This document shows positions 20,100 to 58,054 of a stretch of DNA of 64,000 nt, in pieces. The position numbers were made by a program, and so were the translations under genes. The DNA comes from Simplicispira sp. 125 (lineage in GTDB: Bacteria > Pseudomonadota > Gammaproteobacteria > Burkholderiales > Burkholderiaceae_C). The notes below the pieces were generated by a model. The model had not been told where the DNA came from. It was given only the letters and a program-made list of their open reading frames with translations, and did no database searches. The DNA is taken from assembly GCF_003096555.1 (NCBI RefSeq), contig NZ_QEKM01000001.1, forward strand, positions 3,782,001 to 3,846,000, read 5' to 3'. Numbering within the stretch: position 1 is the first letter of the stretch; each line of letters begins with the position of its first letter.

Positions 20100-20160
20100 T
20101 TTGCTACTGATTTGATAGCTTGTAGCGCTTGCTGCATAAGCGCTAGATGCCAATTTCCCT
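20100..20160 (+). repeat. Interspersed palindromic element, intergenic copy between hsdS and fic
   Basis: A well-preserved copy. The stem TAGCGCTT (20123-20130) pairs with AAGCGCTA (20138-20145) around a 7-nt loop. The left flank is a TTGCTA...TTGATAGCT motif and the right flank is GATGCCAATTTC. It lies in the 302-base gene-free stretch between hsdS and fic. The rest of that stretch holds a near-symmetrical dyad at 20241-20275 and no gene that I can support. Confidence 0.85.
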
Positions 20161-20240
20161 TGTATTTTCCGACTGCAGACGCCAACGCCCATCCCAGTCC
20201 ATAGGTTTAAAAAATTGGGTTTTCTAAGCACATGGCGACT

Positions 20241-20275
20241 AACATGCATAGAAATCGCGATTTTTTAAGCATGTT
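20241..20275. promoter_or_regulatory. Candidate operator dyad upstream of fic
   Basis: A nested dyad: outer arms AACATGC (20241-20247) and GCATGTT (20269-20275) surround the perfect 12-base palindrome AAATCGCGATTT (20252-20263), almost on the same centre. It ends 23 bases before the fic start codon. Because the Fic protein carries a C-terminal winged-helix-like region, autoregulation at this site is a reasonable guess. Confidence 0.5.
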
Positions 20276-20298
20276 CCACCGCCGCCAGGCACCCTTGT

Positions 20299-21381
20299 AT
20301 GCCTTTTGACCGCAGCCAGCCCTACAACGACTTGCCCCTGCTGCCGCCGACGGTGGAGTTGGAGAGCAAAGCCGTGCTCAAACAAGCCATCGCCGCCAAC
20401 CGGGCGCTGGCCAATTTGCGCGGGCTGGCGGCGCAGATTCCCAATCAGGGTGTGCTGATCAACAGCATCGTGCTGCAAGAGGCGCGGCTGTCGTCCGAGA
20501 TTGAGAACATCGTGACCACCAACGATGAGCTGTACCGGGCCGACGCCGATGCGGATGCCGATGGCAAGACCGACCCGCACACCAAGGAAGTGCTGCGCTA
20601 CCGCCAGGCGCTGAACTTTGGCTTTAGCCAGTTGAAACACCGGCCGCTGGCGACCAATTTGTTCATCGACATTGTTCGCACCATCAAACAAGTGGACTTT
20701 GGAGTGCGCAAAGTGCCGGGCGTTGCCCTCAGAAATGCCGCGAAAGAAGTGGTGTACACGCCGCCGGTGGGCGAGGCCGTCATACGGGAAAAGCTGGCCA
20801 ACCTGGAGCAGTTCATTCATGCACAGGATGATTTGGACCCGCTGGTCAAAATGGCGGTGCTGCACTACCAGTTTGAGGCGATTCACCCGTTTGAAGACGG
20901 CAACGGCCGCACCGGGCGCATTGTGAATTTGCTGTATCTGGTGGAGCAGGGCTTGCTGGATATCCCGGTGCTGTTCTTGTCGCGCTACATACTGGCCAAC
21001 AAGTCAGGCTATTACCAAGGTTTGCGCGGGGTGACGGAGCAGCAGGATTGGGAAAGCTGGGTTCTGTACATGCTGCGTGCCGTGGAAAGCACGGCGCAGG
21101 AAACTTTTGACCAAGTGACGCGCATTCGGGTACTGATGGAGCAGGTGCGTGAGCAAGTGCAGCAGCAAGCGCCGGGCATCTACAGCAAAGACTTGGTGGA
21201 GGCGATTTTTCAGCACCCGTACACCAAAATTCAATTTTTGGTGAACGCCAACATCGCCAAACGCCAAACCGCTTCGAGCTACCTGCAAACCTTGGCTGGG
21301 CTGGGCGTGCTGCGCGCCAGCAAGCAAGGGCGGGAGATGTATTACATCAACGACGCGCTGTTTGCCGAGTTGGTGAAATGA
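20299..21381 (+). CDS. Fic-family protein (class II, AMP-transferase type) inside the hsd locus
   Basis: A 360-residue Fic protein. The full catalytic motif [12 protein letters not shown] is at residues 196-207, so adenylylation activity is likely. The N-terminal inhibitory motif (S/T)xxxE(G/N) is present as SSEIEN (65-70), which makes it a class II Fic with a built-in autoinhibitory glutamate (Glu69). The last 80 residues ([19 protein letters not shown], then EMYYIND) look like a winged helix. The short Asp/Ala run at 80-90 (DADADADG) is unusual. The gene sits between hsdS and hsdR on the same strand, is preceded by a dyad and followed by a terminator hairpin. Its target is unknown; a role in controlling or guarding the R-M system is inference. 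Confidence 0.93.
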
Positions 21382-21386
21382 CCATG

Positions 21387-21420
21387 AAATCGACACGTAC
21401 AGAAAATGTGTCGATTTTTT
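21387..21420 (+). terminator. Rho-independent terminator between fic and hsdR
   Basis: A perfect 10-base inverted repeat, AAATCGACAC (21387-21396) and GTGTCGATTT (21408-21417), with an 11-base loop and a T run that begins in the right arm. It lies six bases after the fic stop. It should reduce read-through into hsdR, implying a separate promoter or attenuated expression of the endonuclease subunit. A smaller dyad, GTCGA-N5-TCGAC, follows about 30 bases downstream. Confidence 0.75.
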
Positions 21421-21481
21421 GCGTAAAAATAAACATATCAAGGGCCTCATGTCGATGGCGTCGACACGAGGGAGGGGCGCC

Positions 21482-24400
21482 ATGACCGAAGACCAACTCG
21501 AACAAGAAACCCTGGCCTGGTTACAAGACCTGGGCTACGCGGTGCGCAGCGGCTTCGACATCGCCCCCGATGGCCCGAACCCACAGCGGGCGAATTACCG
21601 CGAGGTGCTGCTGCTGGGCCGCCTGCGCGAAGCCATGGCGCGGCTCAACCCCGGCATGCCTGCCGCCGCGCGTGAAGACGCGGTGCAGCAGGTGCAAAAC
21701 CTGGGCTTGCCTGCGCAGCTGGCGGCCAACCGGGCGTTTCACAGGCTGCTGGTGGGCGGCGTGCCGGTGCAGTACCAGCAGGGCGGTGAAACGCGGGGCG
21801 ACTTTGCGCGGCTGGTTGATTGGGCGGATGCATCGCGCAACGAGTTCTGGGCGGTGAACCAGTTCACCCTCAAAGGCCCGCACCACACGCGCCGGCCCGA
21901 CATTGTGTTGTTCGTCAACGGCCTGCCGCTGGTGCTGCTGGAGTTGAAAAACCCGGCCGACCAGGAGGCCAGCATCTGGAAGGCTTACGACCAGATTCAG
22001 ACCTACAAAGAGCAAATCCCCGACCTGTTTCAGTTCAACGAGGTGCTGGTGATTGCCGATGGCAGCGAGGCGCGCCTGGGCTCGCTCTCGGCCAACGCTG
22101 AGCGCTTCATGCAGTGGCGCACGATTGACGGCGTGCAGCTCGACCCGCTGGGCCAGTTCAACGAGCTGGAAACGCTGGTGCGCGGCGTGCTGGCGCCGCA
22201 ATACTTATTGGACTACCTGCGCTTTTTTGTACTGTTCGAGGACGACGGCCAGCTCATAAAGAAGATTGCCGGCTACCACCAGTTCCATGCGGTGCGCGCC
22301 GCTATTGGGCATGTGGTGGCTGCGTCGCGCGAGGGGCTTGCTACCAGCCAGCGCGGCAAAGGCGGCGTGGTGTGGCACACGCAGGGCAGCGGCAAAAGCA
22401 TCACCATGACCTGCTTTGCCGCCCGCGTGATGCAGGAGCCGGCGATGGAGAACCCCACCATCGTTGTCATCACCGACCGCAACGACCTCGACGGCCAGCT
22501 GTTTGGCGTGTTCAGCTTGGGCGCCGACCTGCTGCGCGAGCAGCCGGTGCAGGCCAGCACGCGCCCGGCCTTGCGCCAGCTGCTGGCCAATCGGCCGTCG
22601 GGCGGCATTGTGTTCGCGACCATCCAGAAGTTCATGCCGGGCGAGGACGAGGATGTGTTCCCGGTGCTCTCCGAGCGCCACAACATCGTGGTGATTGCCG
22701 ATGAAGCGCACCGCACGCAGTACGGGTTTGAGGCCAAGCTCAAGACGCGCAAGCAAAATTTCAAGCCAAATGTGCCTCTAGCGCTTGATGCACAAGCGCA
22801 AGCAGCTACTAAAAGCATAGTGACCAGCGATGCTGGCAGCAGCGCCGTGCATGCCGAGTTTGCTTCGCCCGAATACACCACGCACTACCAAGCCGGTTAC
22901 GCCCAGCACCTGCGCGATGCGCTGCCCAACGCCACCTTCGTCGCGTTCACCGGCACGCCGGTCAGCAGCCAGGACCGCGACACGCGCGCCGTGTTTGGCG
23001 ACTACATCCATGTCTACGACATGCAGCAGGCCAAGGAAGACGGCGCCACGGTGGCCATCTATTACGAAAGCCGTCTCGCCAAGCTGCGACTCAAAGACGA
23101 CGACCTGGCCCTGCTCGACGCAGAAGTGGACGAGCTGGCCGAGGACGAAGAGGAAAGCACTCAGGCCCAGCTCAAAAGCCGCTGGGCCGCATTGGAAAAA
23201 GTGGTGGGCGCCACGCCGCGCATTGCCAGCGTGGCGGCCGACCTGGTGGCGCATTTTGAAGAGCGGAGCAAAGCCCAGGACGGCAAAGCCATGGTGGTAG
23301 CGATGAGCCGCGACATCTGCGTGCACCTGTACGATGAAATCGTGCGCCTGCGCCCCGACTGGCACAGCGCAGACCCGGAGCAGGGCGCCATCAAGGTGGT
23401 GATGACCGGCAGCGCCAGCGACAAGGCTTTATTGCGAGCGCACATCTACAGCGCCCAGGTCAAAAAGCGGTTGGAAAAGCGCTTCAAGGACCCGGCTGAC
23501 CCGCTGCGCATGGTCATCGTGCGCGACATGTGGCTCACGGGGTTTGACGCGCCCTGCGTGCACACCATGTACGTGGACAAGCCCATGAAGGGCCACAACC
23601 TGATGCAGGCCATTGCCCGCGTGAACCGTGTGTTCAAGGACAAGCAGGGCGGCCTGGTGGTGGACTACATCGGCATCGGCAACGAGCTCAAAGCCGCGAT
23701 GAAGGAATACACCGCGAGCCAGGGCCGAGGCAAACCCACGGTGGACGCACACGAGGCGCTCTCCTTGTTGTTCGAAAAAATGGACGTGCTGCGCAGCCTG
23801 CTGCACGGCTACGACTGGTCAGGTTTTTTGACGGGCGGACACAAGGCCCTGGCCGGGGCGGCCAACCATGTGCTGGGGATTCGGTCAGCCAACAAAGACA
23901 GCCAGCAAGACGGAAAGCGCCGCTTTGCCGACGCGGCGGTGGCCATGGGCCAGGCATTCAGCCTGTGCTGCACGCTGGACGAAGCCAAGGCGCTGCGCGA
24001 AGAGGTGGCATTCTTCCAGGCGGTGAAAGTGATTTTGACCAAGCGCGATGTGACGGCGCAGAAACGGACCGATGCGCAGCGCGACGCAGCCATCCGCCAG
24101 ATCATCAGCCAGGCGGTGGTGAGCGAGCGCGTGGTGGATATTTTTGACGCCGTGGGGCTGGATAAGCCCAACATCGGCCTGCTCGACGATGAATTTCTGG
24201 CCCAGGTGAAAAACCTGCCCGAGCGCAACCTGGCCGTGGAGCTGCTGGAGCGCCTGCTAGAAGGTGAAATCAAGGCCAAATTTGCCACCAACGTGGTGCA
24301 GCAGCGCAAGTTCTCAGACTTGCTGACCAGTGTGATCGCGCGTTACCAGAACCGCAGCATCGAAACGGCGCAGGTGATGGAAGAGCTGGTGGACATGGCC

Positions 24401-24727
24401 AAAAAGTTTCGCCAGGCGGCGGGCCGGGGCGAGGCGCTGGGCCTGTCTGAAGACGAGGTGCGCTTTTACGACGCCCTGGCCAACAACGAGTCGGCCGTGA
24501 AAGAGCTGACCGACGAAACCCTGAAAAAGATCGCCCATGAACTGACCGACAACCTGCGCAAGAACATCACCGTCGACTGGAGCCAGCGCGAGAGCGTGCG
24601 TGCCAGCCTGCGCCTGATGGTCAAGCGTATCTTGCGCAAATACAAATACCCGCCAGATTTGCAGGACGCGGCCGTGGAGTTGGTGTTGCAGCAGGCCGCG
24701 GTGCTGGGTGAGAGCTGGGCCGCTTGA
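21482..24727 (+). CDS. hsdR: Type I restriction endonuclease subunit HsdR
   Basis: A 1081-residue motor/nuclease subunit. The N-terminal PD-(D/E)xK nuclease is visible as Asp140 (RRPDIVLF) and Glu154-x-Lys156 (LELK). The translocase has Walker A TQGSGKS (300-306), DEAH (407-410), FTGTP (489-493) and a motif VI region [10 protein letters not shown]. The start at 21482 was chosen because the preceding frame overlaps the terminator region. Residues about 425-448, between DEAH and FTGTP, are encoded by a copy of the interspersed palindromic element inserted in frame. Expression may be separated from hsdMS-fic by the terminator. It should cut unmethylated DNA after translocation. Confidence 0.96.
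22755..22823 (-). repeat. Interspersed palindromic element inserted in frame in hsdR
   Basis: On the minus strand this matches the intergenic copies: an AGTAGCT flank, a stem of TTGCGCTT with AAGCGCTA around a 7-nt loop, then a GAGGC...GGCTTGAAAT tail. On the plus strand the stem is TAGCGCTT (22779-22786) and AAGCGCAA (22794-22801). It is read as hsdR codons (phase GCG-CTT), giving a peptide rich in Ala, Gln and Lys. Confidence 0.85.
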
Positions 24728-25387: not shown

Positions 25388-25458
25388 TCGCGGTCCTGCG
25401 CTCTCTCCCGTTGTCGGGATCATCTCCTCCGTTCTGGCCTTTTCCCTGGCCGGACTGG

Positions 25459-25891: not shown

Positions 25892-25904
25892 CGCAATACT
25901 TCTC

Positions 25905-25980
25905 GATTGCTATATTAATAATAGCTGTCAGCGCTTGATGGTATTGCGTAATACCTGCTTTTTACATAAATTTTGAATGG
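25905..25980 (+). repeat. Diverged interspersed palindromic element
   Basis: The left flank is recognisable (GATTGCTATATTAATAATAG, then CAGCGCTTGATG), but the right arm of the usual stem has been replaced by the inverted repeat GGTATTGCGTAATACC (25940-25955). The sequence CGCAATAC just upstream (25892-25899) can also pair with GTATTGCG. The right flank (CTTTTTACATAAATTTTGAA) again resembles other copies. Confidence 0.55.
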
Positions 25981-28445: not shown

Positions 28446-28461
28446 ACACTGCGAGGCCCCC

Positions 28462-29080: not shown

Positions 29081-29719
29081 ATGCTGCGCACCGCCTTGCT
29101 CAGCGCCCTGCTGGTGCTGGCAGGCTATGCCAGCGCTGCCTGGCTGACGCACGACTTCCAGGTCTGGACGGCCGAAGGCGCGCGCCGCCTGGAGGTGGCG
29201 CAGCACCCCGTGCCCGTGCCGCCGGTCACGGTGGAAGGCCCGGGCATCGCGGCGCAGAGCCTGCCCACGCTGCTGGCGCAGGGCGGCGGTGTCACCCTGG
29301 TCGACTTCGTTTACACCCGCTGCCAGACGGTGTGCTTGTCGCTGGGCAGCAGCTTCCAGCAGTTGCAGGCGGCCCTGCAGGCCGACCGCAACGCAGGGGC
29401 CACACCCAAGGTGCGCCTGCTGTCCATCAGCTTTGATGGCGCGCATGACACGCCTGCGGTGTTGCAGGCCTATGCGCGCTCACTGCAGGCCGACCCGGCG
29501 CTGTGGCACTGGGTGCGCGTGCCCGACGCAGCAGAGCAGCAAGCGCTGCTGCAGCGCCTGGGTGTGGTGGTGGTGCCCGATGGGCGCGGCGACTACGAGC
29601 ACAACGCGGCCTTTCTGGTGCTGGACGCGCAGGGCCGCATGGTGCGGGTGTTTGACCTGGCCGAGCAGCAGTTGGCGCTGGACTCTGCGCGCCACCTGGC
29701 AAAAGGGGGGCGGCTGTGA
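29081..29719 (+). CDS. SCO1/SenC-family copper chaperone
   Basis: A 212-residue thioredoxin-fold protein with an N-terminal membrane anchor. The copper-binding CxxxC is in YTRCQTVC, and the third ligand His is in YEHNAAFLVLD. SCO proteins deliver copper to oxidases; here the substrate is most likely the CuB site of the CcoN encoded three genes upstream. Usual cbb3 clusters carry other assembly genes (ccoGHIS), so a SCO gene inside the operon is less common. It overlaps the next gene (GTGA). Confidence 0.9.
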   Translation: MLRTALLSALLVLAGYASAAWLTHDFQVWTAEGARRLEVAQHPVPVPPVTVEGPGIAAQSLPTLLAQGGGVTLVDFVYTRCQTVCLSLGSSFQQLQAALQADRNAGATPKVRLLSISFDGAHDTPAVLQAYARSLQADPALWHWVRVPDAAEQQALLQRLGVVVVPDGRGDYEHNAAFLVLDAQGRMVRVFDLAEQQLALDSARHLAKGGRL

Positions 29720-30351
29720 ACCGGTACCACCTGCGCGCTTCGGTGGCCATCGGGTGCACACCCCGGCGCCAGGTGCTGGTGGCGCTTGCATGGATGGCGT
29801 TGTTGCTTGTGCCTGCGGTGCGCCAGTGGCTCACGGCCAGCATGTGGCGGCACATGGCGCTGCAGTTTCCGTTGTGGATGCTGGCGGGTGCTTGGCTGGC
29901 AGCAGGCTTGCCCCCCGCTGTACGCACCTGCGCGGCGCGCTGGAATGCGCACGGCATCAGCGGGCTGGTCGCCACCGGCACTGTTCTGGCCGTGTTGATG
30001 GTGCCGCGTGTGCTCGACCTGGCGCTGGTGTCTGCGCCCATCGAGGCGGCCAAATGTGTGGCGCTGGTAGTGGCTGGCACGGCGCTGCGGCTGTCGTGGC
30101 GCGCTGCGGGGCTGGTGGTCCAGGGATTTTTTCTGGGCAACATGCTGCCCATGACCGCGGTGGTCGGACAGCTGTACATCGACAGCCCTCTGCGCCTGTG
30201 CAACGCCTACCTGCTGGACGACCAGGCCCGCCTGGGCCAGTGGCTGGTGGGCGCGGCAGCGCTGGTGGCGGTGGGCTGGCTGGCGCAGGTGGCCTGGTGG
30301 GTGGCGCGGCGTGAGGGGGCGTCGGCGGTGTGGGTGTCTGACAAGGGTTGA
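29716..30351 (+). CDS. Polytopic membrane protein at the end of the oxidase operon
   Basis: A 211-residue protein with about five hydrophobic segments (near 20-40, 47-65, 85-105, 112-130 and 175-195). I do not recognise the family. The stretch GFFLGNMLPMTAVVGQLYIDSP, with nearby RLCNAYLLDDQ, looks conserved rather than random. It starts at a GTG overlapping the SCO stop, so it belongs to the operon. A role in assembly or copper/haem supply for the oxidase is inferred only from position. Confidence 0.75.
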   Translation: MNRYHLRASVAIGCTPRRQVLVALAWMALLLVPAVRQWLTASMWRHMALQFPLWMLAGAWLAAGLPPAVRTCAARWNAHGISGLVATGTVLAVLMVPRVLDLALVSAPIEAAKCVALVVAGTALRLSWRAAGLVVQGFFLGNMLPMTAVVGQLYIDSPLRLCNAYLLDDQARLGQWLVGAAALVAVGWLAQVAWWVARREGASAVWVSDKG

Positions 30352-30415
30352 TTGCTATTTAATTTATAGCTTGTTGCGCTTGTTTCACGGGCGTTAGATG
30401 GGTTTTTTGTTGGGT
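30352..30415 (+). repeat. Interspersed palindromic element after the oxidase operon
   Basis: It starts directly after the preceding stop codon with TTGCTATTTAATTTATAGCT. A partly decayed stem follows (TTGCGCTT, loop, then GGGCGTTA), and a T-rich right flank. It could serve as a transcript end. Confidence 0.7.
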
Positions 30416-30691
30416 TTTTGTGCGCTCTGCGCCTTGGGCCGCGCCGCTTGTGCTGAAGGCGGAGGCCGGGGTCGCAGGCAGCGGTGCTCGGTGCTGGCGG
30501 GGTCTCGCTCGAACTCGCGCCTGCGGCGCTCAAACAATCGCGAGCCCTGATCCGCCATCCTCTGCGCTCCTCGGCGCAGCCAGAAGGGGGTTGAAGCCCG
30601 CACGGGCCATCGCTGCGCTCGGCCCTAACGCGCCGCCGGGCGCACATCCCGGCCTCCGTCGGCAGCACAAAACACAAGTCCCAAAGCAGCG
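30416..30691. other. Gene-free GC-rich stretch, possible second repeat family
   Basis: No credible gene is seen between the palindromic element and the end of ctlX. The plus strand around 30520-30600 encodes, in one frame, a peptide fragment (KQSRALIRH and RSSAQPEGG) that I recall from spurious hypothetical proteins in related genomes, which suggests a dispersed non-coding repeat. This recollection cannot be checked here. Confidence 0.35.
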
Positions 30692-37402: not shown

Positions 37403-37439
37403 GGCAGCGCGCCGCCTGCGGTGCCGATATAATCGCCCC

Positions 37440-37520
37440 TTCCTCCGAGGAGCGTTGCAGCGGCCCCATTGTGTATGCGGGACGTGAGGCTCGGAGTCAT
37501 CCCGCAACGACGCTCATCCA
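37440..37520 (+). promoter_or_regulatory. SAH riboswitch upstream of ahcY
   Basis: The RF01057-type consensus is readable: CTCCGAGGAGCGTTGCAGCG, then GAGGCTCGG, then GCAACGACGCTCATCC, with the first and last blocks pairing (GAGCGTTGC with GCAACGACGCTC). In beta-proteobacteria this element senses S-adenosylhomocysteine and raises expression of SAH recycling genes. It is about 70 bases before the ahcY start. Confidence 0.92.
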
Positions 37521-37587
37521 CTTTCCGTGTGGTGAGCCTGTACCTTCCCCCGGCGAGTGGTTTTTCAAACATGCTTTGGAGCAAACC

Positions 37588-39090: not shown

Positions 39091-39094
39091 TATT

Positions 39095-47922: not shown

Positions 47923-49032
47923 TCACGCAGGGTAGATGCACCCCAACACACGGGCGCCTTGGGCGCCCGTTGCCATTGGGAGGTTGCCCGGCAGGCCCAG
48001 CATGGCTTGGCGGGCCAGCCAGGCAAAGGCAGCACCCTCCACCTGCAGGGCCGGCAAGCCAAAAGCATCGGTCGCCTGCACCCGCAGCGAAGGCAGCAGT
48101 GCCTGCAAGCGTTTCATCAGGTGCTGGTTGAATGCACCACCGCCACAGACTGCCAAAGATTTACTATTGTTTTTGTAGCTTGATGCGCTTGCTGCACAAG
48201 CGCTTGCAGTGAATTCGGTGAGTGTGGCCTGGATATCGACGGGAGATGCGGAGCCAAAACCTGCCAGTTGCTTCTGTAGCCATTGGGGGTGAAACAGGTC
48301 GCGCCCCGTGCTTTTGGGTGGCGCCCGGTGCAGGTAAGGCTCCTCGTTGAACAAGGCCAGCAAACCGGGTAGCACCTGGCCGCTGGCCGCCCAGCTACCG
48401 TCCCGATCGAATGGCTGCTTCGTATGGCGCTGGCACCAATGGTCCATGAGGGCGTTGCCCGGGCCGCAATCAAAACCCAATACATGGCCGCCAGCAGTCA
48501 GTACGCTGAGGTTGGCAATCCCGCCAATGTTGAGCACCAGCAAGTCCTGCCCCGGTTGGCCGAACATGTGCTGGTGAAAGGCGGGCACCAGAGGCGCGCC
48601 CTGGCCGCCAGCCGCCACGTCGCGGCTGCGCAGGTCGGCCACCACGGCAATGCCAGTCCGTTCGGCCAGCAGGGCAGGGTTGTTGAGCTGGAGGGTATAG
48701 CCCGTGCCGTCGAATTCCCCAGGACGGTGGCGCACAGTCTGGCCATGGGCTCCAATGGCCCGCACCGCATGGGCGGGTACGTCAGTATTCTTTAACAGGT
48801 CGCGCACGGCCCTGGCGTAGTGGAGAGCCAGAGCGTTGGCGGCCAGGGCTGCGCGGTGCAGTTCGTTGGCACCAGGGCTGTTGAGCGCCAGAAGCTCGGC
48901 GCGGGTGGTGTCGTCAAAGGGGGCTGCATGGTGCGCCAGCACACGGCAGCGCGGGCCGGAAAAATCGGCCAATACAGCATCGACGCCGTCGAGCGAGGTG
49001 CCCGACATCAGGCCGATGTAAAGCTCGGACAT
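47923..49032 (-). CDS. anmK: Anhydro-N-acetylmuramic acid kinase
   Basis: Phosphorylates and opens 1,6-anhydro-MurNAc during peptidoglycan recycling. The 369-residue protein has GLMSGTSLDGVDAVLADF, IGAHGQTVRHRPG, NIGGIANLS and GFDCGPGNALMD, all family hallmarks. About residues 273-291 (EFTASACAASASSYKNNSKS) come from an in-frame copy of the interspersed element, just before LAVCGGGAFN. The gene follows the M23 peptidase gene on the same strand, a sensible pairing for cell-wall turnover. Confidence 0.94.
   Translation of the reverse strand: MSELYIGLMSGTSLDGVDAVLADFSGPRCRVLAHHAAPFDDTTRAELLALNSPGANELHRAALAANALALHYARAVRDLLKNTDVPAHAVRAIGAHGQTVRHRPGEFDGTGYTLQLNNPALLAERTGIAVVADLRSRDVAAGGQGAPLVPAFHQHMFGQPGQDLLVLNIGGIANLSVLTAGGHVLGFDCGPGNALMDHWCQRHTKQPFDRDGSWAASGQVLPGLLALFNEEPYLHRAPPKSTGRDLFHPQWLQKQLAGFGSASPVDIQATLTEFTASACAASASSYKNNSKSLAVCGGGAFNQHLMKRLQALLPSLRVQATDAFGLPALQVEGAAFAWLARQAMLGLPGNLPMATGAQGARVLGCIYPA
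48160..48216 (+). repeat. Interspersed palindromic element inserted in frame in anmK
   Basis: The flank TTTACTATTGTTTTTGTAGC is followed by the stem GCGCTT (48185-48190) and AAGCGC (48198-48203) around a 7-nt loop, then a TGCAGTGAATTC tail. The gene reads the other strand, with the stem in phase GC-GCT-T, the third possible phase relative to hsdR and the HAD gene. Confidence 0.85.
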
Positions 49033-50640: not shown

Positions 50641-51876
50641 ATGAATCATTCCGCTGTTACAACTTTCCCGGTCACCGATGGCGTGGCACAGGCGCTCGAA
50701 GTGTCGCTGCGCGGCGTCGAGGAACTGCTGCCCCGGGACGAGTGGGTGCAAAAGCTGGCGCGCTCGCAGGCCAAGGGTCAGCCGCTGCGCATCAAGCTGG
50801 GGCTGGACCCGACGGCACCCGACATCCACATCGGCCACACCGTGGTGCTCAACAAGATGCGCCAGTTGCAAGACCTGGGGCACCAGGTGATTTTCCTGAT
50901 TGGCGACTTCACCACGCTGATCGGCGATCCGTCTGGACGCAACACCACGCGCCCGCCGCTCACGCCCGAGCAGATCAAGGCCAACGCCGAAACCTACTAC
51001 ACCCAGGCGGCCAAGGTGCTCGACCCTGCGCGCACCGAGATCCGCTACAACAGCGAGTGGAGCGAACCCTTGGGCGCGGCCGGCATGATCCAGCTGGCGG
51101 CCAAGTACACCGTGGCGCGCATGATGGAGCGCAACGACTTTCACCAGCGCTTTACCGTCGGCAGCTCGATCAGCCTGCATGAGTTTTTGTACCCGCTGCT
51201 GCAGGGCTACGACTCGGTGGCACTCAAGAGCGATCTGGAGCTGGGCGGCACCGATCAAAAATTCAACCTGCTGATGGGGCGCCACCTGCAGCAGGAATAC
51301 GGCCAGGAGCCGCAGTGTGTGCTCACCATGCCGCTGCTCGTCGGTCTGGACGGCGTGGACAAGATGTCCAAGTCCAAGAACAACTACATCGGCATCACCG
51401 AAGACGCCAACACCATGTTCGCCAAGGTGCTGAGTATTTCGGACACGCTGATGTGGGATTGGTACACGCTGCTGTCGTTTAAGAGCCTGGCCGAGATTGC
51501 CGCGCTCAAGGCCGAGGTGGCGGGTGGCCGCAACCCCAAGGACGCCAAGGTGATGCTCGCCAAAGAGATTGCCGCGCGCTTTCACAGTGCGGCAGCCGCC
51601 GATGCAGCCGAGCAGGATTTCACCAACCGCAGCAAGGGCGGCGTGCCGGATGAGATTCCCGAGGTGAACCTGTCGGGTGCGCCGCTGGGCATCGGTGCCT
51701 TGCTCAAGCAGGCCAACCTGGCGCCGTCTACCAGCGAGGCCAACCGCCTGATCGACGGTGGCGGCGTGCGCGTCGAGGGGGCGGTGGTTTCCGACAAGGG
51801 CCTCAAGCTCACGGCGGGAAGCTACGTCGTGCAGGTGGGCAAGCGCAAGTTTGCGCGCGTGTTGCTGGGTGAATAA
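50641..51876 (+). CDS. tyrS: Tyrosyl-tRNA synthetase
   Basis: A 411-residue class I synthetase of the TyrRS-Z type. The HIGH-like motif is HIGHTVVL in [12 protein letters not shown] and the KMSKS motif is intact ([12 protein letters not shown]). The C-terminal S4 RNA-binding domain is seen in [17 protein letters not shown]. The ATG at 50641 gives the family N-terminus; upstream open frame is not conserved. A copy of the interspersed element begins four bases after the stop. Confidence 0.98.
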
Positions 51877-51879
51877 TTG

Positions 51880-51938
51880 GATGAAAAATGCCTCAACCGC
51901 TTATCCATCAAGCGGTTGTAGCTATTGATTTGATATTC
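51880..51938 (-). repeat. Interspersed palindromic element between tyrS and a LysR gene
   Basis: In minus orientation it has TATCAAATCAATAGCT, then a perfect stem (AACCGCTT at 51895-51902 and AAGCGGTT at 51910-51917 on the plus strand) around a 7-nt loop, and a GAGGCATTTTTC tail. The stop codon of the LysR gene (51937-51939) falls within its edge. Confidence 0.85.
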
Positions 51939-52926
51939 AGGGGCTTGGCGCTCTGGGTTCTGCCGCCTCCCCCAGAGCAGTGCGCGTGGCCGTAGCCTCG
52001 GCGCGCAGCCAGGTGCAAAAGGCCTGCACCTCTGGGCGCTGCTGGCTGCGTGGGCCGACGAGCAGCCAGTAGGCCAGCGGCGAATCGAGCCGGTGGCCGG
52101 GCAGCACCTCCACCAAGTCGCCCCGGGCCAGCGCGTCTGCCACCAAGGGCAGGCGCGCCAGCGCCAGGCCTTGGCCGCTGAGCGCGGCCTGCACGATCTG
52201 GTGCGCGTGGTTGAAGGACAGCCAGCGCTGGGGCTGCAGTTGGGGGCAGCCCTGGGTGTTGAACCAGCGGCGCCAGGACAGCCATTCCAGGTGCAGGCTG
52301 CGGTGCGCATCGCCTGCTTCGATCAGGGTGAAGCGGGCTACATCGACGGGTGCGCGCACGGGCGGCATGCTTTTGAGCAGCCAGGGGCTGGCCACCACTG
52401 CCAGTTGCTCGCCAAACAAGCGCTCAGCGCTCGCCAAGCGTACGTTGGGAAGGCTGTAGCGCAGCGCCAGGTCAATGTCGGCGGTGTCCAGGTCGACCGG
52501 GACATCGCTGGCGTCGATACGCAGGTCAATGTCGGGGTGGTCGCGCTGGAAGGCTTCCATGCGCGGGATGATCCAGGTCGAGGCAAAACTGGCCCAGGTG
52601 GCGATGGCCACGTTCTTGCGCCCTGCTGTCTGGCGCACCATGCGCACGGCGGCGTCTATGCGTTCCAGTGCGGGCGTCACGGCGCGCTGCAGTTGTGCGC
52701 CGGCGCTTGTCAACTCCACGGCACGGGTGTGGCGCAGGAACAGCGGCACGCCCACTTCGTCCTCCAGCGCCTGGATCTGGCGGCTCACGGCGGATTGCGT
52801 GAGTGACAGTTCTTCTGCGGCCGCACGAAAGCTGAGATGCCGCGCCACGGCCAGGAACGCGCGCCAGTGGCCCGCCGCCACAGGACGGGTGCGCAGCAGG
52901 GAGGTGGGTGCGTAGGGGGTAGGCAT
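51937..52926 (-). CDS. LysR-family transcriptional regulator (GcvA-like)
   Basis: A 329-residue regulator. The helix-turn-helix is LSFRAAAEELSLTQSAVSRQ with IQALEDEVGVPLF, and the effector domain starts near residue 110. SEG-like segments DIDLALRYS and LPLVADALARGDLV are as in GcvA relatives. The ATG at 52926 was preferred over an upstream start. It ends inside the edge of the interspersed element, so its last codons may have been reset by that insertion. Divergent neighbour: glmU. Confidence 0.9.
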   Translation of the reverse strand: MPTPYAPTSLLRTRPVAAGHWRAFLAVARHLSFRAAAEELSLTQSAVSRQIQALEDEVGVPLFLRHTRAVELTSAGAQLQRAVTPALERIDAAVRMVRQTAGRKNVAIATWASFASTWIIPRMEAFQRDHPDIDLRIDASDVPVDLDTADIDLALRYSLPNVRLASAERLFGEQLAVVASPWLLKSMPPVRAPVDVARFTLIEAGDAHRSLHLEWLSWRRWFNTQGCPQLQPQRWLSFNHAHQIVQAALSGQGLALARLPLVADALARGDLVEVLPGHRLDSPLAYWLLVGPRSQQRPEVQAFCTWLRAEATATRTALGEAAEPRAPSP

Positions 52927-53051
52927 GTGAAGAGCTGTATTGATGCGCTGGATGAATCGATAGCGTAGCGCACCCACTACGTGCCGGATTCAGGATAATC
53001 GGCTGCTTTTCCCGGCGGGGACGGTCCTGCGCCGGACGACCACAGATTGCC

Positions 53052-54491
53052 ATGACACCCATCGACATCCTCATCATGGCGGCCGGCAAGGGCACGCGCA
53101 TGAAAAGCCGCATTCCCAAGGTGCTGCAGCGCCTGGGCGGGCGGGCTCTGCTGCACCATGTGCTGGACCAGGCCGCCCATCTGCAGGCGCGCAGCGCCAT
53201 CGTCATCACCGGCCACTGCGCTACAGAAGTAGAAGCTGCTACCGCAGGTGCAGCAAGCGTTGGAGGTGGTTTTGACCTGAAATTTGTGCGCCAGGAGCCG
53301 CAACTGGGCACCGGCCACGCCGTGCAGCAGGCCGTGCCGCAGCTGCAGGACGACGGCACCGTGGTCGTGCTCTCGGGCGATGTACCGCTGACCCAGGCCG
53401 ACACGCTGCGCGCGCTGGTGGCCGCGTCGCAGGCGGTGCCCGGCGGGCAGCTGGCGCTGCTGACGGTGACCATGGACGATCCCACGGGCTATGGCCGCAT
53501 CGTGCGCAATGCCGACGGCGCGGTGCAGGGCATCGTCGAGCACAAGGACGCCAGCGAGGCCCAGCGCGCGATTACCGAGATCTACAGCGGCATCATGGCC
53601 GTGCCCGCACGTCTGCTGCGCGGCTGGCTGGCACGCCTGACCAATGACAACGCCCAGGGCGAGTACTACCTGACCGACATCGTCGCCATGGCCGTGCAGG
53701 ACGGCGCTTCTGTGGTGGCGCACCGCATCGTGGATGTGCTGCAGGTGGCGGGCGTCAACAGCCCGTTGCAACTGGCCGAACTGGAGCGCGCCCACCAACT
53801 GCGCCAGGCCACTGCGCTGATGGAGCAGGGCGTGCGCCTGGCCGACCCGGCGCGCTTTGACCTGCGCGACGACACGCGCACCGGCGTGCGCGGCGCGCTG
53901 CTGTGCGCGCAGGATGTGGAAATCGACGTCGGCTGTATCTTTACCGGCCGCGTGGTGCTGGGCGAGGGCGTACAGATTGGCGCGCACTGCTGCATTGCCA
54001 ACGCCCGCATTGACGCGGGGGCCGTCATCCACCCCTACACCCACATTGACGGCGAACAGATGAGCGCTACCGTAGGCGAGGGCGCACTGGTGGGCCCCTT
54101 TGCCCGCCTGCGCCCCGGTGCACAACTGGGCCGCGGGGTGCACATCGGTAATTTTGTAGAGGTGAAGAACGCCACCCTGGCCGACGGCGCCAAGGCCAAC
54201 CACCTAGCCTACCTGGGCGACGCTACCGTGGGCGAGCGCGTGAATTTCGGCGCGGGCAGCATCACCGCCAACTACGACGGTGCCAACAAGCACCGCACCG
54301 TGCTGGGTGCCGATGTGCACATTGGCAGCAACTGCGTGCTGGTGGCGCCGGTACGCATTGGCGCCGGGGCCACGGTGGGGGGGGGCTCCACCATCACCAA
54401 AAACGTACCCCCCGGCGCGCTGGGCGTGGCGCGCGGACGGCAGGTCAGCATTGCCGACTGGCAGCGTCCTGTCAAGCAGCCCAAGCCATGA
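53052..54491 (+). CDS. glmU: Bifunctional GlcNAc-1-P uridylyltransferase / GlcN-1-P acetyltransferase
   Basis: Makes UDP-GlcNAc for peptidoglycan and lipopolysaccharide. The N-terminal uridylyltransferase has ILIMAAGKGTRMKS, QLGTGHAVQQA and LSGDVPLT; the C-terminal left-handed beta-helix has NFGAGSITANYDG. The 479 residues exceed the usual 455 or so. Residues about 55-78 (CATEVEAATAGAASVGGGFD) are encoded by DNA that matches the interspersed element, partly decayed. It overlaps the next gene by four bases and lies near glmS, the first enzyme of the same pathway. Confidence 0.97.
   Translation: MTPIDILIMAAGKGTRMKSRIPKVLQRLGGRALLHHVLDQAAHLQARSAIVITGHCATEVEAATAGAASVGGGFDLKFVRQEPQLGTGHAVQQAVPQLQDDGTVVVLSGDVPLTQADTLRALVAASQAVPGGQLALLTVTMDDPTGYGRIVRNADGAVQGIVEHKDASEAQRAITEIYSGIMAVPARLLRGWLARLTNDNAQGEYYLTDIVAMAVQDGASVVAHRIVDVLQVAGVNSPLQLAELERAHQLRQATALMEQGVRLADPARFDLRDDTRTGVRGALLCAQDVEIDVGCIFTGRVVLGEGVQIGAHCCIANARIDAGAVIHPYTHIDGEQMSATVGEGALVGPFARLRPGAQLGRGVHIGNFVEVKNATLADGAKANHLAYLGDATVGERVNFGAGSITANYDGANKHRTVLGADVHIGSNCVLVAPVRIGAGATVGGGSTITKNVPPGALGVARGRQVSIADWQRPVKQPKP
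53216..53286 (+). repeat. Decayed interspersed palindromic element inside glmU, sense orientation
   Basis: Blocks in common with other copies: AGCTGCTA, the loop-plus-right-arm GTGCAGCAAGCGTT, GGAGG, and the tail TTTTGACCTGAAATTT. The left stem arm has changed (ACCGCAG), so the hairpin is weak. It is the only coding copy in the same direction as its gene. Confidence 0.7.
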
Positions 54492-55321
54492 GCACGCCCC
54501 CCCTGGACGCAGCCCCTCCCGGCGTGCCGGGGGCGGACGCCTACGCCGCGCTCGATGCCCCTGCGCTGCGTGCCCTGCTGGCACAGCGCGACCAGCAGTG
54601 GGCGCCGCAGGCGGCTGCACAGGACGAATGGGTGCACGCCGTATCGCACGACCTGCGTGCGCCGCTGCGCCACATCACCTCCTATGGGCCGCTGGTGCGC
54701 GAGCTGCTGGAGGAGGTGCAGGGCCTGGAGCCCGAAGCGCGGCAGGAGGCGCTGGCCTTTCTGGGCACCATGGACCAATCGGCCCGGCGCATGGGCCGCA
54801 TGCTTGATGGCCTGCTGGCCCTGGCCCGCATTGACCGAGCGCCGCTGCGCCTGGAACCCGTGGATTTGGCGGCGCTGCTAGAGCAGGCCCGCGCGCCGCT
54901 GGCCGCAGCGCTGCAAGGACGCGCCGTGCAGTGGCAGGTGGCGCCAGCGACCGTGCAGGGCGATGCGGCACTGCTGCGCGCTCTGCTCGATGCCCTGTTG
55001 TCCAACGCGCTCAAGTTCACGCAGGGGCGGGCACCGGCCTGCATCGCCGTAGGGGCCGAGCGCGCTGCCGATGGGGGGTGCACGCTCTGGGTGCAGGACA
55101 ACGGCGTGGGCTTCAACCCTGCGCAGGCGAAAGGGCTGTTCGGCATCTTCCAGCGCCTGCACCGCGAGAACGAGTTTGAAGGCGTGGGCACCGGCCTGGC
55201 CCTGGTGCGCGCCGTGGCACGGCGCCATGGTGGCCAGGTGCAGGCTACGGCCGTGCCGGGTGAAGGCTGCACGGTGCGCGTGTCTTGGCCGGGCTCTGGG
55301 GCCACGCCGTTCTTCGAGTGA
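54488..55321 (+). CDS. Soluble sensor histidine kinase
   Basis: A 277-residue kinase without membrane spans. The HisKA phosphoacceptor is in AVSHDLRAPLRHI (His near residue 53). The ATPase domain has NALKFT, DNGVGF, FQRLHRENEFEGVGTGLAL. There is no visible sensor domain beyond a short N-terminus, and no response regulator next to it. The start overlaps the glmU stop (ATGA). Bacteriophytochrome-type kinases end in the same kind of core, so this may be a kinase module that pairs with an unlinked sensor. Confidence 0.88.
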   Translation: MSTPPLDAAPPGVPGADAYAALDAPALRALLAQRDQQWAPQAAAQDEWVHAVSHDLRAPLRHITSYGPLVRELLEEVQGLEPEARQEALAFLGTMDQSARRMGRMLDGLLALARIDRAPLRLEPVDLAALLEQARAPLAAALQGRAVQWQVAPATVQGDAALLRALLDALLSNALKFTQGRAPACIAVGAERAADGGCTLWVQDNGVGFNPAQAKGLFGIFQRLHRENEFEGVGTGLALVRAVARRHGGQVQATAVPGEGCTVRVSWPGSGATPFFE

Positions 55322-55323
55322 TG

Positions 55324-55382
55324 CAAAAATGAGAGCTACCAGCGCTTGACTGGTAAGCGCTGGAGTCACTTTTCTTTCAAAT
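55324..55382 (+). repeat. Interspersed palindromic element between two convergent genes
   Basis: A short left flank (AAAAATGAGAGCT), then the longest stem in the window, CCAGCGCTT (55339-55347) with AAGCGCTGG (55355-55363), a 7-nt loop, and GAGTCACTTTTCTTTCAAAT. It fills the gap between convergent genes and may end transcription both ways. Confidence 0.85.
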
Positions 55383-55383
55383 T

Positions 55384-56517
55384 TCAGAGGCCTGGTGCAG
55401 GCGCCACAGAGAGAGGTGCGTTTGCGGCCACCGCAGGCGCCGGGAAGGCGCTGACCTGGTTGCGCCCCAGGTGCTTGGCGCGGTAGAGGGCAGCATCGGC
55501 ATCGTTGATCCAGTCACGCAACTGGAGTTGTCGGTCTGTGGCCTCGGCCAGGCCAATACTGCTGGTCAGACGCAGGCCGGGCAGCTCACGCAGGCGCACG
55601 GTGGCAATCTGTTCGCGGATGCGCTCGGCCATGGCCTGCGCCGTGGCGGTGCTGGCATTGCTGCAGACCACCACGAATTCATCGCCGCCGTAGCGGCCGG
55701 CGTGGTCCTGGGCGCGCACGCAGTCGCGGATCACGCGGCCCACGACCCGGATCGCTTCATCGCCTACCGTGTGGCCGTGCAGATCGTTGATGTGTTTGAA
55801 ATGGTCGATGTCGATCATCAGCAGGCAGGCCGGTTCGGCATGGGTATGAAAGCGCTCCAGGCTGGCGCTGGCCACTTCCTGCCAGTGGCTGCGTGCGGCC
55901 AGTCCGGTCTGGGCGTCGGTGCGGCGCAGTTCATCGAGCTGGCGGTTTTGCCGCGCTACGGTGCGAATGAGCCGGTAGCTGGCGATGCTGACGGCCATGG
56001 TGTGCACAACAATGATGGGCAGCGTGAAAATTACCACCCAAAGGCCGCTTTCCAGGCTCGGTTCGGGCCGCACCAGCAGGGTGGTCAGCAGCCCGGCGCC
56101 GAGCATGCCCGGTAGCGAATACAGCCACAGGCGCTTGATGCCGCTGCTGAACTTGTCGTAGGTGGTCACGGCGACCAGCACCACGCTGGGCAGCAGGTTG
56201 AACTGCATCAGCGGCACCCACAGGCCCACCAGGGCCGAGTCGATCAGCAGATTGCGGATTTCAGCGCGAAACGGGTCGGCACTGTAGCGGGCCAACAGAT
56301 AGGCGATGTGCGGCCAGAGAAAAAAGGACACCACCGCCAGCCATCCATAGTGCCCCAGCATGCCGTGCTGGTGCAGCACGCTGCCTATCAGCAAGCCGCC
56401 CAGTCCCATGCCCAGAATGCGCAGCGGGTAAATGCGGTGGAAGACGCGGCGGCGCGAAGCGGGGCCGCTGTCGCCACGGTGGGACGGCGGATGCTGGGTG
56501 TCGGTTGCTGCGGACAT
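55384..56517 (-). CDS. MASE2-domain diguanylate cyclase
   Basis: A 377-residue membrane cyclase. The N-terminal MASE2 sensor-type domain has RRVFHRIYPLRILGMGLGG and five to six hydrophobic spans (to about residue 185). The GGDEF domain has RYGGDEFVVV and an inhibitory I-site RAQD five residues before it. It should make c-di-GMP in response to an unknown signal. An ATG at 56517 was chosen; a TTG start 12 codons upstream is possible. Confidence 0.91.
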   Translation of the reverse strand: MSAATDTQHPPSHRGDSGPASRRRVFHRIYPLRILGMGLGGLLIGSVLHQHGMLGHYGWLAVVSFFLWPHIAYLLARYSADPFRAEIRNLLIDSALVGLWVPLMQFNLLPSVVLVAVTTYDKFSSGIKRLWLYSLPGMLGAGLLTTLLVRPEPSLESGLWVVIFTLPIIVVHTMAVSIASYRLIRTVARQNRQLDELRRTDAQTGLAARSHWQEVASASLERFHTHAEPACLLMIDIDHFKHINDLHGHTVGDEAIRVVGRVIRDCVRAQDHAGRYGGDEFVVVCSNASTATAQAMAERIREQIATVRLRELPGLRLTSSIGLAEATDRQLQLRDWINDADAALYRAKHLGRNQVSAFPAPAVAANAPLSVAPAPGL

Positions 56518-56580
56518 GGCGTGCTGGGCGGGGTGGTTCCTGGCAATGGTCAAGGCTAACAGACGCTGCCCAACAAGGGC

Positions 56581-56937
56581 TTACCGCACACCACGTGCCG
56601 TGCCTGTGCCTTCTTCCAGATGGCGCAGACGGCGGCGCAGGTGGGCCACTTCTTCCATCAGATCGGTGGTCATGGCCGCCAGGTAGGGGTCGGCGTCGAA
56701 GGTAGCTTCCAGTTGGGCCACGCGCCGTGCGCGCACCAGGGTGGCGCTGCTGAAACGCCAGGTGACGAACCCGGCGGCGGGGCTGCTGGGCGGGGTGGTT
56801 TCGAGCACCCCCGCCTCGACACGCTCGCTCACCCATTCCGGGGCGCGGCAGCAGGCGCGGGCCAGGTCTTCCAGCGTGAGGGAGGCATCGTCCAGCAATT
56901 CGCCCAGTTGCGCCGGGGTGTGGAATGCATGCGGCAT
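56581..56937 (-). CDS. cbpM: CbpA modulator CbpM (MerR-like)
   Basis: A 118-residue protein that matches the CbpM family in size, in its MerR-like helical start (LTLEDLARACCRAPEWVSERVEAGVL) and in the C-terminal charged coiled segment (LMEEVAHLRRRLRHLEE). CbpM binds the J domain of CbpA and inhibits it. It begins two bases after the cbpA stop, so the pair is one operon. Confidence 0.85.
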   Translation of the reverse strand: MPHAFHTPAQLGELLDDASLTLEDLARACCRAPEWVSERVEAGVLETTPPSSPAAGFVTWRFSSATLVRARRVAQLEATFDADPYLAAMTTDLMEEVAHLRRRLRHLEEGTGTARGVR

Positions 56938-56939
56938 GG

Positions 56940-57923
56940 TCAGGCTCCTTGCGCGGCTTTCGCCTGGCGCGGATTGAAATGGGGAAAGGCCTTGCCCAGA
57001 GCAGCCCAGGCGGCGCGTGCGGTGTCGGTGTCGGCGGGCGGCAGGGCTACGCCCAGTTCCAGGTACAGATCGCCCGGCGTGCTGCTGGGGATGCCCCGGC
57101 CTTTGAGGCGCAGCTTGCGCCCCGCGTGGGAGCCCGCGGGCACGGTCACTTCCAGGTTGCCCGCCGGTGTCTGTACTTCGACGCTGGCGCCCAGCGCGGC
57201 CTCCCAGGGGGCGAGCAGCAAGGGCTGGTAGATGTCGCGGCCCTCGGCGCGCCAGCGCGGGTCGGGGCGGAACAGCACCTCCAGAAAAAGGTCACCCGCT
57301 GGGGCGCCGCCCAGCCCCGGGTTGCCCTGGCCTGCCAGGCGGATCAGTTGGCCTTCGCGCATACCTTTGGGAATCTTCACTTCCAGGCTGCGCTGCTCGG
57401 GTACCACATGTCCGCCAGCGTCCAGGTGCGCTGTGCGCAGATGGATGGTGCGCGTGCCGCCCTGGTAGGCGTCAGGGATGTCGAGCTCGATGCGGGCGTG
57501 CTGGTCGGCCCCGCGCTGCGCGCCGCCTGCCGGTGAGCCCTGCCTGCGGTACGCCCGTGCGGCCTGGCCAAAGAGTTGCTCGAAGAAATCGCTGTGCTGC
57601 CCACTGCCTGCGCCATCGTAGGGGTCGCTGGCGTCGGAGAAGGCGAAACCGGCATCCCAGTGGGGCGGCGGGTGAAAGTCGCCGCCGCTGCGTGCGCCCT
57701 GGGCGGCTGCCTGCGCACTCAAGGCATCGTAGGCTGCGCGCTTTTCAGGGTCGGACAGCACGGTATAGGCCTCGTTGAGCTGCGCCATGCGCTGCTCTGC
57801 ATCGGGCGCCTTGCTCACATCGGGGTGGTATTGGCGCGCCAGCTTGCGAAAGGCTTTTTTGATCTCGTCGGCCGTGGCGCCCGGGTCCACGCCGAGCACC
57901 TGGTAGTAGTCCTTGAATTCCAT
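56940..57923 (-). CDS. cbpA: DnaJ-like co-chaperone CbpA
   Basis: A 327-residue class B J protein. The J domain (residues 3-70) has the HPD motif in RQYHPDVSKA. It has no zinc-finger (CxxCxGxG) region. The two C-terminal beta domains are present (VEIKIPKGMREGQLIRL-like stretch, LRLKGRGIPS). It stimulates DnaK and is associated with the nucleoid in E. coli. A perfect AGGAGG site precedes the ATG at 57923. Confidence 0.94.
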   Translation of the reverse strand: MEFKDYYQVLGVDPGATADEIKKAFRKLARQYHPDVSKAPDAEQRMAQLNEAYTVLSDPEKRAAYDALSAQAAAQGARSGGDFHPPPHWDAGFAFSDASDPYDGAGSGQHSDFFEQLFGQAARAYRRQGSPAGGAQRGADQHARIELDIPDAYQGGTRTIHLRTAHLDAGGHVVPEQRSLEVKIPKGMREGQLIRLAGQGNPGLGGAPAGDLFLEVLFRPDPRWRAEGRDIYQPLLLAPWEAALGASVEVQTPAGNLEVTVPAGSHAGRKLRLKGRGIPSSTPGDLYLELGVALPPADTDTARAAWAALGKAFPHFNPRQAKAAQGA

Positions 57924-57984
57924 GTAGGAGCCTCCTGATAGCCACTCTACGCGCATGGCCTGGGATGGCAAGGTGTGCAGGTGA

Positions 57985-58054
57985 TTTTGCTATAAAAATA
58001 AAAGCTATTAGCGCTTGTCAGTCGTGCGTTACAGGCACTTTTGTCGTAAATTTT
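57985..58054 (+). repeat. Interspersed palindromic element reaching into an Lrp gene
   Basis: TTTGCTATAAAAATAAAAGC, TAGCGCTT, the 7-nt loop, a decayed right arm (GTGCGTTA), then CAGGCACTTTTGTCGTAAAT. The stop codon and about the last ten codons of the Lrp gene (minus strand) lie inside it. Confidence 0.75.

Follow-up and report, generated by a model that had tools for sequence, protein, structure and literature searches.

A dispersed palindromic element of Simplicispira and related genera, inserted behind stop codons and often overlying native codons within genes

Introduction

The genome of Simplicispira sp. 125 is scattered with a short palindromic element that behaves in two ways depending on where it lies: right behind stop codons it is an insertion adding about 61 nt, and within protein-coding genes many of its copies lie on codons that were already there and hardly alter the gene's length, if at all. 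The element was first noticed, from the letters alone, in a stretch of 64,000 nt (hereafter the window: assembly GCF_003096555.1, contig NZ_QEKM01000001.1, positions 3,782,001 to 3,846,000 of the forward strand), and is estimated to be present in several hundred copies per genome across this bacterial group. Its copies are constrained as DNA, they are retained at orthologous sites, and they are absent from a clade nested among bearers. Tentatively, and as a possibility that we favor without regarding it as probable, we take it for an ancient palindromic repeat, non-autonomous, that would have been copied whole, would have replaced a variable length of target and would have been held in place by recognition of its DNA.

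Anatomy, Abundance and Placement

The element measures about 47–73 nt and consists of a left dyad (RCTAY-N7-RTAGCT), a GCGC stem whose loop is 7 nt long, and GAGGC-N2-W4-N5-AAATTT. The consensus of 72 full-length copies, in which lower case marks positions where no base exceeds half, is cttaaTTGCTATtaAaTTgATAGCTgcTAGCGCTTGatcgatAAGCGCTAGAGGCcaTTTTtacttAAATTTT. With about 40% GC, it stands apart from the sampled genome stretches (59–67% GC). An unfiltered scan of the window with a covariance model recovered all 11 copies listed by the sequence-only reading (57–78 bits, E 5e-14 or better) and a twelfth at 11051–11123 on the minus strand (40 bits, E 6.5e-9), which is the only independent one there since the model was built from the other 11. 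These 11 copies align without internal gaps over 68–73 nt, and in all of them the stem arms are separated by exactly 7 nt, as had been reported. The proposed flank TTGCTAT…ATAGCT stood on its ATAGCT side, but TTGCTAT proved degenerate (RCTAY in the larger set); similarly, the proposed tail GAGGC…TTTT…AAAT was found as a pattern, but the bases of GAGGC are conserved at 65–90% and the TTT at columns 59–61 is exchanged as a block for AAA in 7 of 72 copies. Stem bases 43–44 also change as a pair (AA, GG, TT), and neither type of block change would easily be explained by point mutation alone.

Scanning the 3.97-Mb chromosome revealed a very large excess over chance: every one of 150 scored candidates matched at E 2.2e-6 or better, a lower bound given that 2442 candidates passed the first look. 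In 40 evenly spaced 20-kb stretches, one-fifth of the genome, 93 copies were found, which corresponds to about 116 per Mb, about 460 per genome, or one copy every 8–9 kb. The window is denser (12 copies in 64 kb), partly because the covariance model was trained on its copies.

Placement was assessed for 105 copies in 864 kb, using a purpose-made gene caller with 90.5% coverage. Sixty-one copies fall between genes, 19 reach across a gene end and the other 25 are within a called gene, where random placement would put 86% inside genes. The 80 copies not entirely within genes are distributed between tandem (50), convergent (24) and divergent (5) gene pairs, with one at an edge, against available intergenic lengths of 42.5, 10.4 and 21.5 kb, respectively, and they lie a median of 1.5 nt from a 3′ gene end. 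Once three doubtful genic copies are set aside (one in a 32-aa open reading frame (ORF), two extending beyond the called start), 22 of the 105 lie in frame in unrelated protein genes; in the window alone, where at least four such genes had been announced, five copies are entirely within called genes (11051, 22756, 34027, 48156, and 53213). Twenty of the 25 genic copies are antisense and five sense, and 14 of the 20 antisense copies share one frame, encoding peptides like KxPLALxxxAQAAIxxIV; this bias probably arises largely because stop codons occupy the other frames.

Insertion Between Genes

For 20 intergenic copies, both neighboring gene ends were searched in four element-free genomes (G002, G004, G048, and G046). 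Six sites were still adjacent and readable, giving 14 comparisons, and the remaining 14 sites yielded no readable pair. The spacer of Simplicispira sp. 125 minus the element-free spacer, recounted by script, amounts to 46, 46, 60; 63, 42; 70, 58, 86, 84; 92; 46, 26; and 54, 78 nt at the respective sites, i.e., a gain of 26–92 nt with a mean of 61. One spacer retains a TTGCCCATGTC-type sequence, which is separated from the stop codon by the element.

Overlay on Native Codons Within Genes

The sequence-only reading was right that many copies lie in frame within proteins, but many of these are not insertions. For 20 genic sites, counterparts were sought in G002, an element-free congener, and in G048, an element-free member of another genus; 18 had a homolog. 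Measured against G002 where available and G048 otherwise, nine of the 18 genes are within 2 aa of the homolog, four are longer by 3–5 aa, three by 14–22 aa, and two are shorter; a gain equal to the full-length element occurs in one gene only. Net changes in amino acids are as follows:

LpxB: 0 versus G002, 0 versus G048
AnmK: 0 versus G002, −2 versus G048
RfbD: 0 versus G002, 0 versus G048
A2M-like: 0 versus G002
MiaA: 0 versus G002, +4 versus G048
SpoU-like: 0 versus G002, −1 versus G048
LeuS: 0 versus G002, +9 versus G048
DapF: −1 versus G002, +4 versus G048
CobU-like: +2 versus G002, +5 versus G048
Era-like: +3 versus G002
Tex-like: +5 versus G002, +6 versus G048
PurL-like: +5 versus G002, +5 versus G048
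DapE: +5 versus G002, +5 versus G048
HAD: +14 versus G048
KdtA-like: +17 versus G002
L122:11727: +22 versus G048
HrpA-like: −9 versus G002, +6 versus G048
L121:14218: −4 versus G048

The names HrpA, RfbD, KdtA, CobU, Tex, PurL, Era, LeuS, and SpoU are our presumptive assignments from sequence; the identities of LpxB, MiaA, RmlD (RfbD), DapF, DapE, AnmK, and GlmU have PDB or family support. The comparison with G048 is the stricter one because G002, if it lost copies, may have kept inserted residues, and lpxB, anmK, rfbD, and the SpoU-like gene show no gain against G048 either. Relative to solved structures, the gap at the element is nil in AnmK and LpxB (structures that we take to be gammaproteobacterial), 2 aa in RmlD, 4 in MiaA, 7 in GlmU, 10–11 in DapF, and about 8 in DapE, which has a further gap just ahead of the element. 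In lpxB, for instance, bearers have GCTGCAGCGCTTATCCATCAAGCGCTACCAGCTATTAAAATGATAGT-like DNA, and the residues are similar in G002, G048, and the solved enzyme, with G002 and G048 using other codons.

Constraint on the DNA and Retention at Orthologous Sites

Where residues agree between bearing congeners, codons are identical at 830 of 1114 positions (74.5%) inside the element and at 3255 of 4980 (65.4%) outside (Fisher p 3e-9), the difference having this direction in 10 of 13 genes. Against element-free genomes the relation is inverted, with 67 of 197 (34%) inside and 836 of 1528 (55%) outside (p 6e-8). These counts, like the column counts below, treat related species as independent. At 11 genic sites, a 47-nt motif matrix scores 2.5–60 bits in bearers and −12.7 to −47 bits in G002 and G048; the background of 924 windows has its 99th percentile at −13 and its maximum at −7.5, the matrix having been trained on this genome's copies and the background taken from the same element-free loci. 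Orthologous intergenic regions behave likewise: over 27 flank-anchored comparisons, conserved columns are identical in 559 of 618 cases (90%) and variable columns in 333 of 534 (62%), totals that include two self rows and three doubtful rows of the copy at 39021 (L213, L215, and L226), and that become 461 of 503 and 240 of 434 when these five rows are removed.

The sequence-only reading deduced selection on a hairpin from paired stem changes, which held for one part of the element. The GCGC stem is almost invariant over 79 copies and its pair 30–48 covaries (GC 43, GT 18, AT 6, CG 4, others 8), but the left dyad RCTAY/RTAGC shows no covariation over the same copies, so that pairing is evident in the GCGC stem alone. 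The left dyad is thus rejected as an RNA hairpin and would read as a sequence motif. A third hairpin in the tail, pairing W4 with AAAT, is unsupported, as AAAA variants retain the same tail. Among the 11 listed copies, seven cells are altered on both sides, a count that averages 3.3 after shuffling and is attained in 10 of 500 shuffles, but the number of pairs showing a double change is at chance (3 versus 2.5). At the site of the copy at 39021, orthologous stems carry matched changes (GCGCTT/AAGCGC, GCGCCC/GGGCGC, GCGCAT/ATGCGC, and CCGCTT/AAGCGG).

Distribution and the Element-Free Clade

Twenty of 23 congeners carry the element, with 72 to at least 123 matches each, and for the whole family the count is no lower than 97 of 299 genomes, or 52 of 141 genera (16 candidates scored per genome, own genome counted), which bears out the suggestion that it is of a Comamonadaceae type. 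None of 16 genomes from other families of the order carries it (123 scored candidates each, E 1e-4), and the congeners G002, G004, and G007 have none among 123 scored candidates at the same threshold. In a tree of GlmU and TyrS, these three genomes form one clade (100%) nested among bearers (94–96%); an 18-gene tree of 10 genomes pairs G002 with the bearer G009 at the base of the genus, with only 64% support. Loss in this clade would be a simpler reading than never having had copies, and is not proven. The GlmU of the clade has a loop as long as that of bearers, from which the motif is gone. The bearer G009, whose genome measures 2.7 Mb, has only 72 matches, and its motif scores are weaker at several of the genic sites; its lineage is perhaps on the way to losing the element. 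Loss of competence as the cause of element loss is rejected, ComEC being found in element-free G002 and G004 (not in G007, whose assembly is 84% complete).

Copies in the Window

The 12 copies, with their neighbors, are:

11051–11123 (−): within a 1988-aa gene at 10754–16720 (+), presumably alpha-2-macroglobulin-like (A2M) from its sequence, antisense; length equal to the G002 homolog
20096–20168 (+): intergenic, between an ORF at 18713–19996 and a Fic gene at 20299–21381
22756–22828 (−): within hsdR at 21482–24727 (+), antisense, in frame; found in G041 and G011
25902–25974 (+): intergenic; present also in G015 and G012
30347–30419 (+): intergenic, beginning at the stop of the ORF at 29716–30351
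34027–34099 (+): within a HAD-IIB hydrolase gene at 33522–34313 (−), antisense; +14 aa versus G048; site occupied likewise in G015, G006, G011, G003, G012, G018, and G023
39021–39093 (+): fills the 70-nt spacer between genes at 37399–39024 (presumably ahcY, S-adenosylhomocysteinase, by its C-terminus) and 39095–40090
48156–48228 (+): within anmK at 47923–49032 (−), antisense; gapless versus solved AnmK structures
51872–51944 (−): between a gene with its stop at 51876 (presumably tyrS) and a LysR gene at 51937–52977; same site in 10 congeners
53213–53285 (+): within glmU at 53052–54491 (+), sense, in frame; +7 aa versus solved GlmU structures; site common to several genera
55313–55385 (+): between convergent genes at 54488–55321 (histidine kinase) and 55384–56553
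57982–58054 (+): overlaps the 3′ end of an Lrp/AsnC gene at 58018–58545 (−)

The spacer filled by the copy at 39021 measures only 10–24 nt in three element-free genomes; in G006 and G018 (L213 and L226), another GC-rich insert occupies the site instead, in a region of about 190–215 nt. Beside the copy at 30347 lies another dispersed repeat, about 145 nt long (30481–30624), with matches of 78–95% identity elsewhere in seven congeners, which is possibly related to the GC-rich Betaproteobacterial repeat element discussed below. No Rfam family fits the element in the window, where the sole match is an S-adenosylhomocysteine (SAH) riboswitch (RF01057, 37441–37522 (+), 58 bits) at the start of the called gene 37399–39024, whose actual start probably lies 3′ of the riboswitch.

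Mobility and Copies in Phages

Mobility between strains had been named as a mark of an active or domesticated element, and the picture is mixed: the hsdR copy is shared with G011 and G041 but missing from G006, copies occur in phage contigs and the family is lacking from one clade, but no pair of copies looks recently duplicated. The exact core pattern is present in 42 stretches of IMG/VR viral contigs. Neighboring or enclosing ORFs were examined at 18 of these (18 contigs), and clear phage families were recognized at eight:

L351 and L362: beside anti-repressor genes
L365 and L367: between recT- and recE-like genes
L363: before a DNA primase
L387: upstream of an Erf-like gene
L352: inside an HNH-like ORF
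L375: within a terminase large-subunit ORF

L361 and L366 gave weak family matches only, and L355, L356, L358, L371, L378, L385, L388, and L390 gave no family match in these ORFs. Searches of plasmids and of INPHARED with one copy each as query returned no match. Three phage-borne copies (L365, L367, and L387), two of them perhaps in related phages, are near genes for RecT- or Erf-type single-stranded DNA annealing proteins, a suggestive proximity that would fit a replacement-type integration and may be coincidence.

The REP-associated tyrosine transposase (RAYT) was considered as mobilizer and rejected on its distribution: all three element-free congeners have a PF01797 match (about 47–52 bits), and none is found in G003, which has 122 element matches. 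No terminal inverted repeat was seen by eye in the alignment of window copies, and no empty site was close enough to define a target-site duplication; the survey of resident transposases covered PF01797.

Interpretation and Rival Explanations

We propose that copies multiplied as whole units through a trans-acting factor not encoded in the element, and that each integration would replace between 0 and about 70 nt of target. Behind stop codons such integration would add the observed length, and inside genes mainly frame-keeping copies of near-original length would survive, so that the element would come to lie on native codons. Whole-unit copying with variable replacement would in this manner account for spacer insertion and genic overlay by one process. 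The recurrence of loops as words, also in inverted orientation (counts below), supports copying of whole units. Outside elements, two part-words occur at chance (ATAGCT, 105 versus 93 expected; AGCGCTTG, 64 versus 70), from which the whole unit appears to be what spreads. The copies would then be held in place through recognition of their DNA, and would decay once recognition is lost in a lineage; the constraint on the DNA and the clade-wide absence point to a recognizing factor acting in trans. A bolder version, that the element spreads by overwriting a similar length of host sequence, thereby entering LpxB, AnmK, and RmlD unchanged in length, and that recognition in trans keeps hundreds of copies until it is lost and they are erased, we consider somewhat unlikely.

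Several observations weigh against our proposal. Compared with G048 alone, only four of 15 genes are within 2 aa, eight are longer by 4–9 aa, two by more, and one is shorter; hsdR, outside the 18-gene set, is about 120 nt longer than its copy-free G006 homolog. Overlay could also arise by slow convergence. Three of the 13 genes in the codon test (leuS, tex-like, and purL-like) reverse its direction, and some orthologous genic sites in bearers score below 20 bits, so retention is not strict. Among 79 full copies the best pair is 79% identical and the mean is 56.5%, i.e., no recent transposition is seen, and no mobilizer was found, the single Y1 (RAYT-like) protein having counterparts in element-free congeners. 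As to loss in the nested clade, equally long GlmU loops also occur without the motif, in Ramlibacter, so the long loop of G002 is a hint of loss and not proof; DapE, PurL, and KdtA of G002 are short and its motif scores do not rise above background, both of which would follow from primary absence no less than from loss.

The overlay without insertion, the many copies with star-like divergence, their rarity between divergent genes and closeness to stop codons, and the whole clade without element would also be expected of a recognition word that forms in place by mutation and allele replacement, is kept by molecular drive or selection and vanishes when the machinery changes. DNA uptake sequences (DUS) and uptake signal sequences (USS) are of this kind, as they overlie codons, are abundant, form end-of-gene hairpins and are kept across species, and the highly iterated palindrome HIP1 is a further model. 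Known uptake words are, however, far shorter than this long composite unit, whose intergenic copies are insertions. Neither tested part-word is enriched alone, and the loops appear to be inherited as words: identical 7-nt loops form 16 pairs, whereas shuffling of columns leads one to expect 1.0 (and yields no more than 6 in 2000 rounds), and inverted near-match loops number 43 where 13 are expected. The copies in phage contigs also argue against such a word, which we regard as improbable, as may the presence of ComEC in element-free G002 and G004, although ComEC by itself does not discriminate as to a bias of natural transformation. Just as improbable, in our judgment, is functionless debris comparable to repetitive extragenic palindromic (REP) sequences or miniature inverted-repeat transposable elements, i.e., old insertions that drift and survive in genes by tolerance, with compensating deletions. 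The size of the intergenic insertions, the stem-loop anatomy, the partial or full gains in several genes and the lack of recent copies agree with debris, but conservation of motif columns and of synonymous codons exceeds that of their flanks, the motif is retained at orthologous sites across the genus, and LpxB and AnmK, gapless against solved structures, leave little room for an insertion.

Two further explanations assign the element a role of its own, and both seem to us about as improbable. A hairpin of the plus strand could end, process or stabilize transcripts, bidirectionally at gene ends. G-T far exceeds A-C at pairs 30–48, 34–44, and 35–43 (53 versus 5 in 79 copies; 36 versus 5 in 46 intergenic copies), as if the plus strand folded single-stranded, and the compensatory stems between orthologs and the enrichment between convergent genes fit such a role; the outer pairs 28–50 and 29–49 show no G-T excess (18 versus 23). 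On the other hand, copies in tandem gene pairs lie 26 along and 24 against transcription, and W4 begins about 8 nt past the stem with no T-tract immediately 3′ of it, which leaves the features of an intrinsic terminator wanting; the antisense orientation of most genic copies also speaks against an RNA role, though stop codons in the sense frame could be its cause. Alternatively, the element might serve a nucleoid, repair or defense protein as a site of chromosome organization or protection, one that phages also acquired. Constraint at the DNA level, the copies in phages (RecT- or Erf-like genes being close to three of these) and a spacing that is slightly even (per 20 kb, a mean of 2.33 and a variance of 1.61) are compatible with such a site, but the evenness is weak and neither replication strand is favored (115 of 216 copies are on the leading one), unlike Chi or the FtsK-orienting polar sequences (KOPS), which are biased relative to the replication strand; the lack of bias also rules out a replication-strand signal.

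Relation to Known Repeats

REP sequences and bacterial interspersed mosaic elements (BIMEs) served by RAYT are short imperfect palindromes present in hundreds of copies at gene ends, with no transposase of their own. The element resembles them in being a short imperfect palindrome with many extragenic copies and a stem with a 7-nt loop, and differs from them in the lack of RAYT co-distribution and in the good share of copies that are genic.

The sequence-only reading held that the residence of such elements inside proteins was little described; among open-licence papers little else was met in print, but two published motif pairs match parts of the element. In Acidovorax ebreus, GCTTAT(N)5AAGCG was reported in 114 copies, five of them in genes, and in Polaromonas naphthalenivorans, ATAGCT(N)22CAAAAG in 125 copies, 18 in genes; both are mostly intergenic and near gene ends, the former with 44 convergent and four divergent placements (Tong et al., 2017; PMC5217627). 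Compared by the published motifs, the first pair fits the element's stem with its 7-nt loop, as the element contains GCTT-N7-AAGCG with a similar placement bias, and the second agrees with it in the ATAGCT part. We take these pairs, the nearest observation in print, to be glimpses of the same element, presented in section 13 of that paper as separate statistical motif pairs, with no full element, structure, in-gene study or species comparison. The Betaproteobacterial repeat element (BRE) also occurs in betaproteobacteria including Comamonadaceae with some copies in coding sequences, and measures 75–91 bp, with a mean of 69% GC in Bordetella, at times in tandem and in up to 29 copies (PMC3110155); composition rules out identity with our dispersed element. 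The repeat passages of the Rhodoferax ferrireducens genome paper deal with clustered regularly interspaced short palindromic repeats (CRISPR) only (PMC2755013).

Rickettsia palindromic elements (RPEs) are described as insertions of about 150 bp fused in frame (Ogata, 2000, 2002, in PMC10969869). Both they and the present element are palindromic, non-autonomous and in frame in many unrelated protein genes. RPEs are insertions, whereas half of the testable genic copies here add at most 2 aa and overlie native codons; the RPE-type peptide gain of about the element's length was found in one of 18 genes, with hsdR insertion-like versus G006.

Implications

In-frame palindromes are thus known from Rickettsia as insertions, and here a repeat resides in core enzymes often without insertion and is constrained as DNA. 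The element-free nested clade provides a natural experiment, as a gene missing there may encode the recognizing factor, and through this clade the maintenance of dispersed bacterial palindromes becomes testable. The element also carries a warning for studies of this family, in which synonymous sites and protein loops have been shaped by the repeat.

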